Assembly (NCBI GenBank): GCA_020438485.1
Contig: JAGQUM010000012.1
Span: 443 to 39,031, forward strand
DNA from: Thermoleophilia bacterium
Lineage (GTDB): Bacteria > Actinomycetota > Thermoleophilia > Miltoncostaeales > Miltoncostaeaceae
Direction: 5' to 3'
DNA length: 38,589 bases
Shown here: positions 13,552-20,235 of the stretch, piece by piece
How the letters are laid out: each line of letters opens with the position of its first letter
Position numbering within the stretch: the stretch's first letter is position 1
Position numbers and translations under genes: made by a program
The notes under the pieces: model-generated
Told to the model about the DNA's origin: nothing
Database searches by the model: none
Seen by the model: only the letters and a program-made list of their open reading frames with translations

Positions 13552-14259
13552 CTACGCGTCGTTGATACGGAAGCGGCCGCTGGCGGAGTAGGCGCCCGCC
13601 GCGTCGCACACGATGCGCACCGAGAAGCCCTCGGTCGTGGGCGCGAAGCCGGGCACGAGCACCACGCCCACCGCGTGCGGGTCGCAGTTCTCGGTGCGGT
13701 CCACGTCGATCACGATCGTGCCCGCGGGCGATCCGTCGCCGCCGGCGCACCAGTCGTGAGGCGCCGACGTCAGCGAGCGGGGGAACCTGACCCGGGCGAT
13801 AACGACCTGGCGGGCCCCGTCAGCCGCGCCGGAAACGGCGAACGACCCGTGGACGGTGGACACGGCACCGGCGGCGGCGTCGCCGGGCACGACCCACTCC
13901 GGCGCGGGCGGCGACGCCTGCGTCGCGCGTGCGGGCGCCTCCAGCGTGGCGACGGCGGCGTCCCCGTGCGCGGGGGTCAGCTCCGCGGCGGGCTCGCGAA
14001 GCGCGGCGTTGAGCTGGTCGAGAACGGCCCGGGCCTCGGCCAGCACGTCCGCACCGGCGAGTCGCGTGTCCGCGGCCCGTGTGGTGACCGGGGCGGCGGG
14101 CTCCGCCGGCCCGGCCCCCTGCACGGGCGGGGTGACGGGGACGGCGGGCTTCGCGGGCGCGGGTCGCGCCGAGCGCTCCAGGGCGTTCAGCCGCGCGAGC
14201 ATCCGCACGATCAGCGCGACGGCGCCGATGAACAGCAGGAGGTTGCGGAACGTCTTCAT
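13552..14259 (-). CDS. Membrane-anchored paralogue 1 with C-terminal GFAP-motif domain, unknown function
   Basis: 235 residues; I do not recognise the family. A single N-terminal hydrophobic helix (residues 6-21) is followed by arginines, which by the positive-inside rule puts the rest in the cytoplasm. A Pro/Ala-rich linker runs to about 136. Residues 137-235 form a predicted beta-rich domain (GSFAVSGAA ... VIDVDRTENC ... GFAPTTEGFS at 204-213 ... ASGRFRI). The next two genes upstream have the same architecture and motif. This copy has three cysteines in the domain (171, 192, 218). The ATG at 14259 matches the paralogues, whose helix starts at the N-terminus; ATG 14301 is also possible. Neither has a good ribosome binding site. 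Confidence 0.72.
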   Translation of the reverse strand: MKTFRNLLLFIGAVALIVRMLARLNALERSARPAPAKPAVPVTPPVQGAGPAEPAAPVTTRAADTRLAGADVLAEARAVLDQLNAALREPAAELTPAHGDAAVATLEAPARATQASPPAPEWVVPGDAAAGAVSTVHGSFAVSGAADGARQVVIARVRFPRSLTSAPHDWCAGGDGSPAGTIVIDVDRTENCDPHAVGVVLVPGFAPTTEGFSVRIVCDAAGAYSASGRFRINDA

Positions 14260-14323
14260 GTCGCGTCCGGTCCGAGATCGCGGTTCGGTCCGCGTGTCCA
14301 TCGGCGCCGCGCGTGCGTTCTTG

Positions 14324-14329
14324 AGTGTA
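14324..14329 (-). promoter_or_regulatory. Candidate -10 box for paralogue 1
   Basis: TACACT on the minus strand, just past the large hairpin that follows paralogue 2. A start about 7 nt downstream would allow either candidate ATG of paralogue 1. Confidence 0.4.
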
Positions 14330-14333
14330 ACGG

Positions 14334-14373
14334 CGCCGGGCCCGCCCCCCGGGTGTGGTTGGCGGGCCCGGCG
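14334..14373 (-). terminator. Large hairpin after paralogue 2
   Basis: A perfect 13-bp GC-rich stem (14334-14346 with 14361-14373) encloses a 14-nt loop, starting 7 nt past the stop of paralogue 2. There is no T tract. Position and strength suggest a terminator separating paralogue 2 from paralogue 1. Confidence 0.6.
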
Positions 14374-14380
14374 GCGGGCG

Positions 14381-16279
14381 CTACGGGACGATCCAGAACG
14401 TGCCGCTGGCCGCGAACGGGCCCTTGGCACGCGACGCCAGACGCAGCGTGAACGCCTCGGTGCTGGGCGCGAAGCCCGGCTCCACCATCACGGTGAGGTC
14501 CTCCGGAGCACAGTTCATCGTGGCCTCGACGCCGAGGACGATGCTGCCCGACACCGCCGCGCCCTCGCCCTTGCGGGTCCAGGAAACGGGGGCGTCGCCG
14601 GCCAGCGGGGCGCGGAGGGTGATCTGGGCGAGGGACTCGTGCCCCGCCTCGAGGGCCATGCCGCCCACGGCGAACCGGCCCGTGAGGGCCTCGTCGGACG
14701 GAAGGGTGGCCGGGGGCGCCACGTCGGGTGCCGCGGCCGCCGGCACGGCGACGGGCGCGGACTCCTTGAACGCGGCGGGCTCGGCGTACGCGACGGGCGC
14801 TGCGCCGACCGGCTCGGCAGCGGCGGCCTCGACCGACGCGGACGCGCGGGCGCTGATCTCGTCGAACACCGACGCCGTGGCCGGGGCGGGCTGCCACGTG
14901 GACCACCCGGCGTCGTGATCTTCCGCCTCGGCGGGCTCCGCGACCGGGGCGACCGCCGAGGGGGCCTGCTCGGCCACGGGAGTCTGCTCGGCGACGGGAG
15001 TCCGCTCGGCGACGGGGGTCTCGGCGGCCGGGGCCGCGAAGTCCCACACCGGGGCCTCCACCACCGGAGCCTGCTCAACCACCGGAGCCTGCTCAACCAC
15101 CGGAGCCTGCTCAACCACCGGAGCCTGCTCGACCACCGGAGCCTGCTCAGCCACGGGAGCCTGCTCGGCCACGCGGGCCTCGGCGACCGGCGCCGCGAAG
15201 TCCCACACCGGGGCCTCCACCACCGGAGCCGGCTCGGCCGCGGGGACCTCGGCGACCGGGGCCGCGAAGTCCCACACCGGGGCCTCCTGGACCACCGGAG
15301 CCTGCTCGGCTACGGGGGCCTCGGCGACCGGCGCGGCGAAGTCCCACACCGGGGCCTCCTCCACCACCGGAGCCTGCTCGACCACCGGAGCCTGCTCAGC
15401 CACGGGAGCCTGCTCGGCCGCGGGGGCCTCGGCGACCGGCGCCGCGAAGTCCCACACGGGAGCCTCGTCCACCACCGGAGCCTGCTCGGCCACCGGAGCC
15501 TGCTCGACCACCGGAGCCTCGGGGGTCTCGCTCGCGGCCCACTCGGCCTCGGCGGCGACGGCCTCAAACGGGGCGGTCACGTCGGCGCCGGCCTCGGCGC
15601 CGCCGAGCCAGGCTTCCTGCGCCGGGTCCGCAGCCCACTCCTCGGCCGCAGGGGCGGCGGGAGCCTCGGACATCCACTCGCCGGGGACGTCGCCGGGAGC
15701 CTCGCCGGCATGCTGATCGGCGACGTGGGCGCTCGCGCCGCCCCACGCCTCGTCCATGTCACCGGGAAGGGGCCAGCCGGGCTCGGTGATGACGGAGCCG
15801 TCGTCCCAGGCGTCGGCGGGGGCGTCCCACGCGTCGGCGGCGGTGGCGGCAGCGGTCTCGGCCGTCGCCAGCTCCGGCTCGCCCGGCTGCGTGCCCATCA
15901 TCTCGGCCCGCATCGCGTCCCAGTCCGGCTCGCCCTCCTGCGCCTGCCCGGCGAACGCGAACTGGTCCGCGGCCTGTGCGGGTGCGGCGGCGGGGGCGCC
16001 CGTCGGGGCCTCCAGCGGCATCGGGGCGGGAGGAGCCGGGGGCGTCGCGTTGGCCTTGCCGCGGCGGCGGCCACGCCAGCGCCCCTCGCCGCGGTCGCGA
16101 CCGGCCTTCGGGACCTTCGCGGCCTTCAGCTTCGGGACCTTGGCGGCCCTGGGCGCCTTCGGGGCCTTGGCGGCCTTCGGCGCGCCTGCGCCCTCGGCCT
16201 GGCGGCGGCGCATGACCAGCAGCAGGGCCACGCACCCGAGCGCCGCGATCAGCAGGACAATGTTGAAGCCGTTCAGCAT
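14381..16279 (-). CDS. Membrane-anchored paralogue 2 with repeat-rich linker and C-terminal GFAP-motif domain
   Basis: 632 residues, family not recognised. An N-terminal hydrophobic helix (6-23) is followed by a strongly basic Lys/Arg/Pro/Ala stretch (about 24-75), then an acidic Ala/Pro/Glu linker of some 450 residues. The linker includes tandem PVVEQA-type hexapeptides and five copies of PVWDFAAP. Residues 533-632 are the conserved domain (GRFAVGGMA ... VEATMNC ... [10 protein letters not shown] at 602-611 ... ASGTFWIVP). The charge pattern predicts a cytoplasmic body tethered to the membrane. ATG 16279 has a good GGAGGA site 8 nt upstream, with a 7-bp hairpin (16299-16318) just before that. 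The linker is about four to five times as long as in the paralogues. Function unknown; a scaffold is a reasonable guess. Confidence 0.78.
15038..15457. repeat. Five dispersed copies of a 12-bp unit encoding VWDF
   Basis: The 12-mer gaagtcccacac recurs at 15038, 15197, 15266, 15338 and 15446 on the plus strand, within longer near-identical blocks. Read on the minus strand it encodes VWDF inside [11 protein letters not shown]. Spacings of 159, 69, 72 and 108 bp are all multiples of three, so the reading frame is kept. Confidence 0.9.
15069..15176. repeat. Six tandem 18-bp repeats inside paralogue 2
   Basis: Six contiguous 18-bp units begin at 15069, 15087, 15105, 15123, 15141 and 15159. The first three are identical (gcctgctcaaccaccgga) and the rest differ at one or a few bases. 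Each encodes a hexapeptide such as PVVEQA or PVAEQA on the minus strand. Near-identity at the DNA level suggests recent slippage expansion. Confidence 0.92.
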
Positions 16280-16415: not shown

Positions 16416-17225
16416 TTAGTGAGCCTCCGGGTGGCGGACCACGAAACGCCCGCGGGCCACGAAGCGCCCGGGGCCCGCCGCGGCGGCCACGAGCGTCATG
16501 CCCTCGACGCACGGGGCGAACCCGCCGTCGCTCATGACGGCCACGCCGCCCTCGGGGAGGTTCTCGGACGCCTCGACGATCAGCGTCACGTCGCCGCCGG
16601 CGGGGGCCTCGTCCAGGCGGTGAGCGAACAGCACGCGCCCGAACGCCAGGTCGCCGGCCGCGCTGGCCATGCCCGAGACGAAGAAGTCACCATCGCTGAC
16701 GTGGGCGGCGGGCGCGGCGGCCTCCGGCTCGGAACCGAACGTCTCGATGTCCCCGATGCCGGGGCCGGCGGCCACGAACGCATCCCACTCGTTGACGACC
16801 GAGGCCGCCACGGCCTCGGGCCGGGCGGCCGCGGGCGCGCCCACCGGGGCGTCGTACTCGTTCAGGGAGGGGGCGTCGTCCGCCGGGCCCCCGGGTTCGT
16901 GAGCCGCGGGGCCGCCGGCCCACACGGCGAGCGGCATGTCGGGGATGGTGTGCGTGGGCGTGGCGACGGGCTCGAGCGCGGCCCTCCACCCCTCCCGGAT
17001 CTCCTCCACGGCGGGCTCGGTGGACTCCGCCTCGACGCCGGCGGAGTCGGGCCGTGCCACGTACGGCCGCTGCGGGGTCAGCGTCGCGGCGGTCTCGGCG
17101 CTCGCCACGGCCAGGGTGTCGGACGCGTCGCGGCGCTCGGCCTCCTGCGTCGCGGCGTCGATGCGGCCCTTCAGGTACGCCGCCGCCACCAGCACACCCG
17201 CCACCAACACACGGCCGTTCACCAC
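16416..17225 (-). CDS. Membrane-anchored paralogue 3 with C-terminal GFAP-motif domain, unknown function
   Basis: 269 residues with the same plan as its two neighbours. An N-terminal hydrophobic segment (MVNGRVLVAGVLVAAAYLKG) is followed by a charged stretch, an acidic Pro/Ala/Asp linker and a domain at 178-269 (FFVSGMA ... LIVEASEN ... GFAPCVEGMT at 235-244 ... ARGRFVV). It lacks the Trp/Cys insertion of paralogue 1. Two adjacent GTG codons (17225, 17222) can start it; a GGAGG site lies 4 nt before the first. A hairpin (17257-17273, stem ggggac/gtcccc) lies in the leader. It is the first of the three genes after secDF in transcription order. Confidence 0.74.
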   Translation of the reverse strand: MVNGRVLVAGVLVAAAYLKGRIDAATQEAERRDASDTLAVASAETAATLTPQRPYVARPDSAGVEAESTEPAVEEIREGWRAALEPVATPTHTIPDMPLAVWAGGPAAHEPGGPADDAPSLNEYDAPVGAPAAARPEAVAASVVNEWDAFVAAGPGIGDIETFGSEPEAAAPAAHVSDGDFFVSGMASAAGDLAFGRVLFAHRLDEAPAGGDVTLIVEASENLPEGGVAVMSDGGFAPCVEGMTLVAAAAGPGRFVARGRFVVRHPEAH

Positions 17226-17328: not shown

Positions 17329-20235
17329 TCACGTGCGGCGGCGGCGCTCCTGGATCCTACGGTGGCGGCGCTGACGGTCGCCGGTGGGGCGGTGGCTGCC
17401 CGGCGCCCGCTTGCCGGTCGCCGGGTCCTCGCCGTCCGGCGCGGGATCGGCCTGCGCAGGGTCGTCGCCGGCCGGCGCGGGATCTGCCTCCCGCCCGCGG
17501 GTGGACGACGAGGCGGTGGCGTCCCCCACGTCGGCGTCTTCACCGGCATCCTCATCCTCGAGCCCCTCGGCCAGCTCGCGCGCCGGGGCCATCTCGGCCA
17601 GTCCCGACCCCAGCGCCGGGGCGGCGCCGCCCCGGGAGTCGAGCGCGCGCTCGGCACGCGCCAGCACGTCGACGTCGACCACGTCCGCGTCGATCGTCGA
17701 CACCGCCGCGCGCCGCTTTGCCTTGGCCTGCAGCTTCTTGTCCGCGGGCTCGCGCTCCTTCCAGAACGACGCGAGCGGGGCCGCGATGATGATGGACGAC
17801 ACGCCGCCCGCCAGGATGCCCACCAGGAGGGCCAGTGAGAAGTCCTTGAGCTGGTCCCCACCGAAGAAGTACAGCGCCAGCACCGGCACGAGCGTCGTCA
17901 GCGACGTGATGAGCGACCGGGTGAACGTCTCGTTGACCGAGCGGTTCACGACGTCGCGGTAGCGCGACCCGCGCATCAGCGGCACGTTCTCGCGGATGCG
18001 GTCGAAGACGATCACGACGTCGTACAGCGAGTACCCGAGGATGGTCAGCATGGCGGCGACCGTGGCGCTGGTCACCTCGTGTCCCAGCACCGAGTAGATG
18101 CCGACCGACAGCAGCACGTCGTGCACCACGGACAGCATCGCGGGGACCGCCAACTTGTACTCGAAGCGCAGAACCAGGTAGAGCGCCACGATGATGAAGC
18201 TGAGGACGATCGCCTGGATGGCGTTGTTGATGATCTGGCGCCCGAACGTGGGTCCCACGTCGTCGCGCGTGAGGATCGTCAGGCCGAGCTGGTCGCGCAG
18301 GCCCGCGATGACGGCGTCGCCCGTCTCGGGGCTCAGCGGCTCGGTGCGGATCTGGTAGCCCTGCACGGCGCGGCCGTCGATGGTCTGCGTGGTGCCCTGC
18401 ACCCGCGCATCGGTGACGCCCGCGTCGGACATCACGTTGCGCACCTGCTGCTCGCTGACGGGCTTGGTGTACGACGTGGTGATGCTCGTGCCGCTCTCGA
18501 AGTCGAGGCCCATGTTGAGCCCCTTGACGCCGAGCCAGCCCAGTCCGAACAGCATCGGGATGATGGTGATGGCGGCCCACCAGCGCCAGTGCCCCACCCA
18601 GTCGAAGCTGGGGACGCGCCCCTCGCGCAGACCCGTGTAGCGGTCCTCCCGCAGGAACTTCGAGTTCGCCATCACACCGAAGATCGCCCGGGTGGCGACG
18701 ACGGCAGTGAACAGCGACAGCAGCACGCCGACGGCCAAGGTGAACGCGAATCCGCGGGGCCCGCCGGTGGCGAACAGGAACACGATCAGGGCCGTGGCGA
18801 GCGTCACGACGTTGGCGTCGATGATCGCCGCGATGCCCTTCTTGTAGCCCGCCGCCATGGCCGCGGCGGCGCTCTTGCCCTTGCGGCCCTCCTCGCGGAC
18901 GCGCTCGAAGATGATGACGTTGGCGTCGGCGGCGACGCCGATGGTCAAAATGACACCGGCGATGCCCGGCAGCGTCAGCGTGATGGGCACCAGCACGACG
19001 GCGGCGTAGTACAGCGCGCCGTAGATCAGCAGGGCCAGGGCCGCGACGAGGCCCAGCACGCGGTAGTACGCGATGAGGAACGCCATCACCAGCGCGAGGC
19101 CCACGATGCCCGCGATGACGCCCTGGCGCAGGGACTGCTCGCCGATGGTGGCGTCGACCTGCTTCAGGCTCACCGGCACCAGCCGGATGGGGATGGCGCC
19201 GGAGTTGAGCTGATCGGCCAGCGTGCGGGCCGAGTCGGACGTGAAGTTGCCCATGATGCGGGCGGCGCCGCCGTCGATGCCGAACGGCAGTTCGTTGTAG
19301 TCGATCGTGGGGTTGGAGATCATCTCGCCGTCCAGGACGACGGCGAAGCTCTGCAGTTGCTGCGCGGCCGCGCCGCGCGAGGCGAGCGTCGCGGTGATGT
19401 CCTTGAACTTGTCGCCGCCCGCGTCCGTGAAGTCCATGGTCACGATGGGCTCGCCGCTTCCCCCCTGGCCGACGTCCCGCACGGACGAGGCCCGCGAGAT
19501 GTCGTTGCCGGTGAGACCCGGGTTGTCCTGGAACACGTAGTACTGCGTGGTCTTGGCCCCGTCCGGGCGGCTCTGCAGCACCGGCGTGATCTCGCGCACG
19601 ACGATCAGGCCGCGGGGAACCGACTTGATGGTGATGTCCCTGGGCCTCACGCCCGCGTCACGCACCGCCTTCAGCAACTCCGTGCGCGCCTCGGCCGCCT
19701 TGCCGGGCTCGACCACGACCGGGTCGATGGGCTGGTTCGTGGACCTGTCCATCACGGGCCGCTTCGTGGCCGTGACGAACGCGTACAGGCGCTCGGCGCC
19801 CTTGCCGGGGTCGTTGACGGGCAGGCCCTCCGCCCGGGTGACCGTCGCCCAGAGGTTCCGCGAGGGCGCCCCCTCGACGCTGTCCTGGAAGTCGTAGAAC
19901 GCGAGTTGTGCCGGCCGGATGAGGTTCTTCACCACGTCCTGGGCGTTCTCCTCGCCCGGCAGCGCCACCACGATCTGGTTCGTGCCCTGCGTCTGGATCT
20001 CCGGCTCGGACACGCCGAAGCGGTCGACGCGGTTGCGGATCACCTCGACGGCGCGCGACAGCGAGTCCTGGTTGACCGCCGCCTCGGAGGTGGGCCGGCC
20101 CTCGAGGATCACCTCGACGCCGCCCTGCAGGTCGAGGCCGAGGACTGCGGGCTTCAGCGCGATGGCGACCAGCGACGCGAGGGTCAGGCCGATCACCATC
20201 AGCAGCATCAGGAACGAGCGGCGCGCCTGGCTCAT
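17329..20235 (-). CDS. secDF: Fused protein-export membrane protein SecDF
   Basis: 968 residues joining SecD (about 1-530) and SecF (about 540-825). SecDF uses the proton gradient to help pull preproteins through SecYEG. SecD motifs are LGLDLQGG after the first helix, the large periplasmic region and TIGVAADANVIIFERVREE. SecF motifs are MGLDFESGTS, YDVVIVFDRIREN and NETFTRSLITSLTTLVPVLA. Both halves look intact. After SecF comes a tail of about 140 residues (825-968): first Lys/Arg-rich, then acidic and Ala/Asp/Pro-rich, ending in an Arg/His-rich stretch. This tail is not part of the usual family. ATG 20235 lies 4 nt after the yajC stop. Confidence 0.96.
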   Translation of the reverse strand: MSQARRSFLMLLMVIGLTLASLVAIALKPAVLGLDLQGGVEVILEGRPTSEAAVNQDSLSRAVEVIRNRVDRFGVSEPEIQTQGTNQIVVALPGEENAQDVVKNLIRPAQLAFYDFQDSVEGAPSRNLWATVTRAEGLPVNDPGKGAERLYAFVTATKRPVMDRSTNQPIDPVVVEPGKAAEARTELLKAVRDAGVRPRDITIKSVPRGLIVVREITPVLQSRPDGAKTTQYYVFQDNPGLTGNDISRASSVRDVGQGGSGEPIVTMDFTDAGGDKFKDITATLASRGAAAQQLQSFAVVLDGEMISNPTIDYNELPFGIDGGAARIMGNFTSDSARTLADQLNSGAIPIRLVPVSLKQVDATIGEQSLRQGVIAGIVGLALVMAFLIAYYRVLGLVAALALLIYGALYYAAVVLVPITLTLPGIAGVILTIGVAADANVIIFERVREEGRKGKSAAAAMAAGYKKGIAAIIDANVVTLATALIVFLFATGGPRGFAFTLAVGVLLSLFTAVVATRAIFGVMANSKFLREDRYTGLREGRVPSFDWVGHWRWWAAITIIPMLFGLGWLGVKGLNMGLDFESGTSITTSYTKPVSEQQVRNVMSDAGVTDARVQGTTQTIDGRAVQGYQIRTEPLSPETGDAVIAGLRDQLGLTILTRDDVGPTFGRQIINNAIQAIVLSFIIVALYLVLRFEYKLAVPAMLSVVHDVLLSVGIYSVLGHEVTSATVAAMLTILGYSLYDVVIVFDRIRENVPLMRGSRYRDVVNRSVNETFTRSLITSLTTLVPVLALYFFGGDQLKDFSLALLVGILAGGVSSIIIAAPLASFWKEREPADKKLQAKAKRRAAVSTIDADVVDVDVLARAERALDSRGGAAPALGSGLAEMAPARELAEGLEDEDAGEDADVGDATASSSTRGREADPAPAGDDPAQADPAPDGEDPATGKRAPGSHRPTGDRQRRHRRIQERRRRT

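Follow-up and report, generated by a model that had tools for sequence, protein, structure and literature searches.

The window, that is, the whole analyzed stretch of 38,589 nucleotides on contig JAGQUM010000012.1 of a Thermoleophilia bacterium from the family Miltoncostaeaceae, encodes three proteins with the same C-terminal domain (C-domain), denoted here paralogues 1, 2, and 3 (Table 1). Paralogue 2, the focus of this analysis, consists of an N-terminal membrane helix, a basic segment, an acidic Ala/Pro linker of about 500 residues, and a C-terminal beta-sandwich of about 100 residues. Large plus-strand open reading frames over the same interval were set aside as antisense shadows, given the orthologues and the conserved gene order of the minus-strand gene. 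The true start of paralogue 3 is probably the internal ATG at MKTFRN. A third copy of the C-domain is limited to two members of the source genus, which suggests that paralogue 3 arose by duplication at the level of the genus.

Table 1. Features of the paralogue locus, in coordinates of the window
Feature	Position	Strand	Basis
Paralogue 3 ORF, 292 aa from GTG, same C-domain	13552..14430	minus	
Paralogue 2 gene, 632 aa	14381..16279	minus	ORF, synteny, orthologues, full-length AlphaFold model
C-terminal domain of paralogue 2, H-type-lectin-like beta sandwich (predicted)	14384..14695	minus	AlphaFold, fold comparisons
Repeat array, five ten-residue WDF blocks with PV[VA]EQA spacers	14960..15520	minus	Sequence, TRF, block alignment
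In-frame WDF copies (residues 276, 312, 336, 359, 412)	15454-15446, 15346-15338, 15274-15266, 15205-15197, 15046-15038	minus	
Six contiguous 18-bp units	15157 to 15050	minus	Direct sequence reading
PGWPxPG-type linker motif, 11 residues	15758..15790	minus	PGWPxPG in 12/15 linkers
EPDWDAMR linker motif, predicted short helix (residues 120-127)	15908..15931	minus	PDW[DE]xMR in 5/15 linkers; model
Paralogue 2 N-terminal membrane helix (about residues 4-26)	16202..16270	minus	AlphaFold helix 4-30; hydropathy 2.79
Paralogue 1 gene, 269 aa, same C-domain; linker motifs LNEYDAP, VNEWDAF	16416..17225	minus	

No charged residues precede the membrane helix of paralogue 2, RRR and a Lys/Arg-rich stretch directly follow it, and the net charge is +16 over residues 25-78 and -75 over residues 79-526. 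Under the positive-inside rule, this charge pattern suggests that the linker and the C-domain are probably located on the cytoplasmic side. In the full-length AlphaFold model, the helix and the C-terminal domain are confidently predicted, and the linker between them has low confidence. Most of the linker, including the WDF array, to which no structure is assigned, has a pLDDT of about 40-50, supporting the disorder that the preliminary description had proposed for this region; within the otherwise disordered linker, the block pLDDT of the EPDWDAMR stretch reaches 82.

The C-domain, modelled alone with 20 sequences, is formed by strands throughout (pLDDT 95.9, pTM 0.86). Foldseek returned no rows at E <=0.001 in PDB or BFVD (best E values 0.038 and 0.0056, respectively); the best matches among the predicted viral proteins of BFVD include several tail-fibre proteins and two entries annotated as H-type lectin domain. 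A second structural aligner, for which Z under 8 may reflect merely a common arrangement, placed the C-domains of discoidin II/I at the top (Z 7.9 to 7.4, 82 residues, rmsd 2.5-2.8), followed by Helix agglutinins (6.4) and then by pyocin or tailspike tips. The profile of the H-type lectin family (PF09458) had no matches in the source genome at E<=10, and the 21 C-domain sequences had none in Pfam. Searches against Pfam and NCBIfam identified no credible domain in the three paralogues or their relatives, no sequence match was found in PDB, and the C-domain had no phage or plasmid match. We regard the predicted fold as H-type-lectin-like and do not assign the domain to that family because the PF09458 model finds nothing and Z is below 8. 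H-type lectins are six-stranded antiparallel beta-sandwiches that form trimers and bind GalNAc; judging from the modelled fold, the C-domain may trimerise as well. The likeness to H-type lectins and to phage or pyocin tail-fibre tips is confined to this small beta sandwich: unlike them, the C-domain lacks a sequence match to PF09458 and is carried on a membrane anchor with a linker that is probably cytoplasmic.

Several profile matches were set aside. The Cementoin repeat (PF10511) scored 53.1 bits against a cut-off of 27, likely due to low-complexity composition; this repeat requires Lys for transglutaminase cross-linking, and residues 251-455 of paralogue 2 contain none. LED_rpt and Loki-CTERM matches were similarly discarded as low complexity or membrane helix.

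The C-domain was detected in 18 of the 299 genomes of the class Thermoleophilia, all 18 in Miltoncostaeaceae, and in 5 of the 396 genomes of a phylum sample, again all from this family. A separate search matched 17 of 61 relatives. Its only out-of-family match (G048) covers just the low-complexity N-terminal part, contains an internal stop, is absent from the phylum sample result, and was rejected. Among the genomes searched, the paralogue family is restricted to Miltoncostaeaceae. In the portion of the literature available to us, we found no account of this family, and the word 'Miltoncostaea' occurred in no title or abstract found.

The gene neighbourhood is conserved. The paralogue 2 domain is followed downstream by ubiB in all nine loci and then by recJ in eight of these (L073 ends inside ubiB); upstream, paralogue 1 and then secDF are found in six of the nine, the other three (L067, L073, and L074) ending short of secDF, with paralogue 1 still included in L073. 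The window keeps the order secDF-paralogue-ubiB-recJ, with relA beyond recJ. The gap between SecDF and RecJ is 4.2 kb in G012 and 5.0 kb in G025, both with the paralogue cassette; it is 2.1 kb in G009 and 0.8 kb in G018, family members without the C-domain, and 68 bp in G011, where no paralogue relative was found. SecD and SecF in the window are encoded as a single 968-aa fusion ORF (17329-20235), whose long, low-complexity C-terminal tail contains a 36-bp tandem repeat (17419-17489).

The most conspicuous feature of the paralogue 2 linker is its repeat array. Six contiguous 18-bp repeats, three of them identical, and five in-frame blocks encoding PVWDFAAP had been described, and both observations are borne out by direct reading. 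All five blocks share one ten-residue sequence, followed by V in four cases and by A in the last; the three 18-bp units that are identical at the DNA level start at 15121, 15103, and 15085, and the translated unit series ends with PVVEAP. TRF delineated 6.2 copies of the 18-bp unit with 94% match (15056-15166) and reported periods of 18, 36, 54, 72, 108, and 159 bp over the array region, so that short-unit slippage and duplication of larger segments probably both shaped the array. The suggestion of recent slippage fits the 18-bp units and does not extend to all of the WDF blocks, whose sequences carry synonymous differences and which additionally recur at periods of 72, 108, and 159 bp. The V-x-[DE]-F-A pattern occurs five times in this linker, compared to a shuffle mean of 0.06 and a maximum of 1 in 1000 shuffles, and a search of the 2.58-Mb assembly for the WDFAAP codon pattern located it five times, always inside the array (reversed-pattern control, 0). 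The longest exact repeat within the array is 57 bp, which ordinary reads can span; nevertheless, the copy number in this draft assembly is provisional, and array copy numbers may have been collapsed in the relatives, all of which are likewise known from assemblies and in many cases from MAGs. None of the genomes searched came from a second strain of the source species.

Conservation was assessed in 15 paralogue 2 linkers, leaving aside that of G006, which is divided between two contigs, that of G013, which is truncated by a contig end, and that of G008, which was not extracted; in four of the 15 (G015, G020, G016, and G002), the piece read contains no membrane helix. The 785-aa paralogue 2 ORF of G015 starts without the helix and seems out of frame there (L068:3964-4200), possibly an assembly frameshift; the related copy in G006 has a normal membrane helix. 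The proposal that Trp-Asp-Phe is a binding element is weakened by this comparison: WDF is present in only one of the 15 linkers, the other 14 retaining the linker without it, so that it is not a conserved motif. More widely spread are PGWPxPG and PDW[DE]xMR, both located outside the array. In G004 (L069:4391-5557), PGWPxPG lies inside an 81-bp tandem duplication (96% match) and is present in three copies, AEPAWPEPG, SQPAWPEPG, and SQPGWPAPG.

A different picture emerges within the source genus. The pattern V-x-[DE]-FA is found in two of the 15 linkers, both from this genus, and in none of the other 13. The window protein contains five such blocks (residues 275, 311, 335, 358, and 411), and so does the same-genus relative G001 (locus L066; residues 284, 306, 340, 368, and 422), where four read PVQEFA and one AVQEFA (shuffle mean 0.09); the spacings are 36, 24, 23, and 53 residues compared to 22, 34, 28, and 54. 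This correspondence suggests one ancestral PV-x-[D/E]-F-A array common to both members of the genus, with the Trp apparently particular to the source species. Convergence could also account for it, since Ala, Pro, Glu, and Val abound in both linkers and a larger EFAPAP repeat encloses the G001 blocks. Of the features expected of a short-linear-motif array, as the repeats had been interpreted, the presence of several copies in a disordered region is observed, and conservation of the motif across orthologues is not; the interpretation is supported for a motif repeated within the genus, with modest evidence of a constrained core, and is weakened for Trp-Asp-Phe specifically, the blocks of G001 reading PVQEFA.

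The blocks themselves carry a modest sign of constraint on the array core. Alignment of the ten-codon core of the five copies revealed four changes, all of them synonymous, and the eight codons of the right flank contain five protein-level and two synonymous changes; the left flank, where two copies are shifted, was excluded from this count. With few changes and related, non-independent copies, the chance of an all-synonymous outcome in the core is 0.0034 under equal mutation, and the contrast between core and right flank gives a one-sided Fisher p=0.045. The blocks were collected by WDF alone, so that the identity of these three residues is built in, and that of EAPV and AAP is not.

Tandem arrays are common in this family. 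TRF detected them in 10 of 14 paralogue 2 genes (G016, truncated by the end of its contig, was excluded), with units and residues that vary by genus: EFAPAP in G001, from the source genus, and, in other genera, GIGGWNAEPVAEEAP (G015), EPEYVSQ (G019), EYAPEA (G022), and PVAYEEPAPYQE (G025); none was detected in G007, G020, G023, or G002. Such a distribution is compatible with a serious rival to docking, neutral minisatellite turnover, whereby the linker would need just length, disorder, and negative charge, and GC-rich codon repeats would grow and shrink, carrying whatever peptides were caught in them (WDF, EFAP, YEEP, GGWNAEP). Together with the restriction of WDF to a single linker, the genus-dependent arrays make this a possibility that has to be entertained, one that we consider somewhat less probable than docking; a synonymous-only core beside a changing flank and the equal number of corresponding blocks in G001 weigh against it.

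Aromatic patterns in the linkers of the paralogues bear on this rival from both sides. WDF itself is indeed absent from the other two paralogues, as had been claimed, but NEYDAP and NEWDAF in paralogue 1 belong to a recurrent pattern. In 12 paralogue 1 linkers (that of G001 is only 24 residues long; G013, G020, G003, and G008 were not counted), [LVIMF][ASNP]E[WY] occurs 27 times compared to a shuffle mean of 0.44 and a maximum of 5 in 2000, a count to be read with the provisos that the pattern was picked after inspecting the sequences and that some copies come from close relatives (G019/G022 and G015/G006) and are not all independent. It is present in seven of these linkers, including two copies in the window, and appears to be a better-supported aromatic motif than WDF; in paralogue 2 linkers it is not enriched (2 versus 1.7 expected). 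The latter linkers contain 16 WW pairs compared to 6.4 expected, a number that, in 2000 shuffles, was reached by the maximum alone. Tandem duplication explains this excess poorly because the pairs sit in differing contexts within one gene. Both the WW pairs and the repeated appearance of aromatic motifs among paralogue 1 linkers weigh against purely neutral turnover; the absence of even spacing of the aromatics and the lack of an aromatic excess in the array (5.3% versus 5.7% in the rest of the linker, counted against a motif reading) favour it. Across the 15 paralogue 2 linkers, even spacing is unsupported relative to shuffles, with a mean z of -0.29 for all aromatics and +0.99 for Trp only. 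Acidic residues beside Trp are not clearly enriched (z 1.6), and Pro at +2 to +4 from Trp reaches z 2.7.

Selection could also act on composition rather than on sequence, with aromatic residues serving as stickers for weak self-association or clustering of the acidic disordered chain at the membrane. Every one of the 15 linkers has aromatic residues (Trp, Phe, or Tyr), with a density of 3.8 to 8.3 per 100 residues, and the dominant aromatic changes between genera, with array units using W, F, or Y, as this proposal would have it. Sticker models usually predict evenly spaced aromatics, however, and with no such spacing in the linkers we consider this explanation unlikely. That the aromatic motifs bind the H-type-lectin-like domains of their own or neighbouring paralogues strikes us as quite improbable, considering that the array stays at a pLDDT of about 40-50 in the single-chain full-length model, although the paralogues encoded together, two or three in number, share this domain and several carry aromatic motifs in their linkers.

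The interpretation that we tentatively favour, while giving it somewhat less than an even chance, is that the array is a lineage-specific, concertedly evolving set of weak docking motifs rather than a fixed WDF code. Short PV-x-[D/E]-F-A motifs, here PVWDFAAP, would line the disordered acidic linker of a membrane-anchored protein, and the copies would turn over together by unequal exchange or conversion, as suggested by the presence of Trp-Asp in all five copies here and Gln-Glu in all five of the same-genus relative, with the acidic-Phe-Ala core retained and the spacer hexads (PVxEQA) free to expand. Such an array would most likely serve to dock a partner near the membrane through multiple low-affinity contacts. 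We infer the binding, the partner, and the shared ancestry of the two arrays. In favour of docking, we count the five blocks in each genus member, the synonymous-only core, the low pLDDT of the linker, the aromatic arrays of paralogue 1, and the WW excess in paralogue 2 linkers; against it, the presence of WDF in one linker of 15, the better conservation of PGWPxPG outside the array, the lack of even spacing and of aromatic excess, the weak enrichment of acidic residues beside Trp, and the absence of modelled structure in the array, for which no partner was found.

A Trp-Asp-Phe tripeptide that serves a protein interaction is known from yeast Kic1, where a single-copy WDF at residues 357-359 (site D) is bound by MO25/Hym1 and needed for the interaction (PMC3804511). 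The Kic1 site is eukaryotic and present in one copy rather than in an internal array, and no relation to paralogue 2 is implied.

The array of paralogue 2 also resembles a general class, the intragenic tandem repeats of disordered bacterial proteins, in being an in-frame minisatellite that encodes a low-complexity linker; it differs in that a same-genus relative has a counterpart with an equal number of blocks and in that the changes in its core are synonymous only. If the blocks bind, the two genus members, whose five-copy arrays differ at the same positions in all copies, would allow the evolution of multivalent linear motifs in bacteria to be examined in a natural setting. More speculatively, and with little confidence, the docking motifs can be placed in a membrane-bound heteromeric scaffold of paralogues 1-3, confined to Miltoncostaeaceae and encoded beside secDF, in which the lectin-like domains would trimerise and the linker arrays (LxEW-like in paralogue 1, PV-x-[D/E]-F-A in paralogue 2) would dock a shared partner or each other, the motifs being rewritten by genus. 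Regardless, the analysis draws attention to an uncharacterised protein family in the interval from secDF to ubiB-recJ, whose C-domain escapes recognition by standard family libraries.

Some additional variation among the paralogues was observed. Paralogue 1 of the same-genus relative (L066:4117-4464) is just 116 aa long and, unlike its counterparts, retains the C-domain without the membrane helix and linker. In two other genomes (L072:3171-4421 and L073:1-906), paralogue 1 contains a degenerate unit of about 30 residues, centred on RRxRxRDxFDxAALAEWxTxPxWG and repeated several times, for which Pfam yielded no match. Finally, a motif resembling VF[DEA]x(H)I, recognized by eye only, recurs across the paralogue linkers as SVFDEIS, SVFDAHI, DVFERHI, and DVFAQHI, with sites in the window (14381-16279, about residues 471-475), L066:6392-7315, L071:2870-3760, and L073:938-2833.
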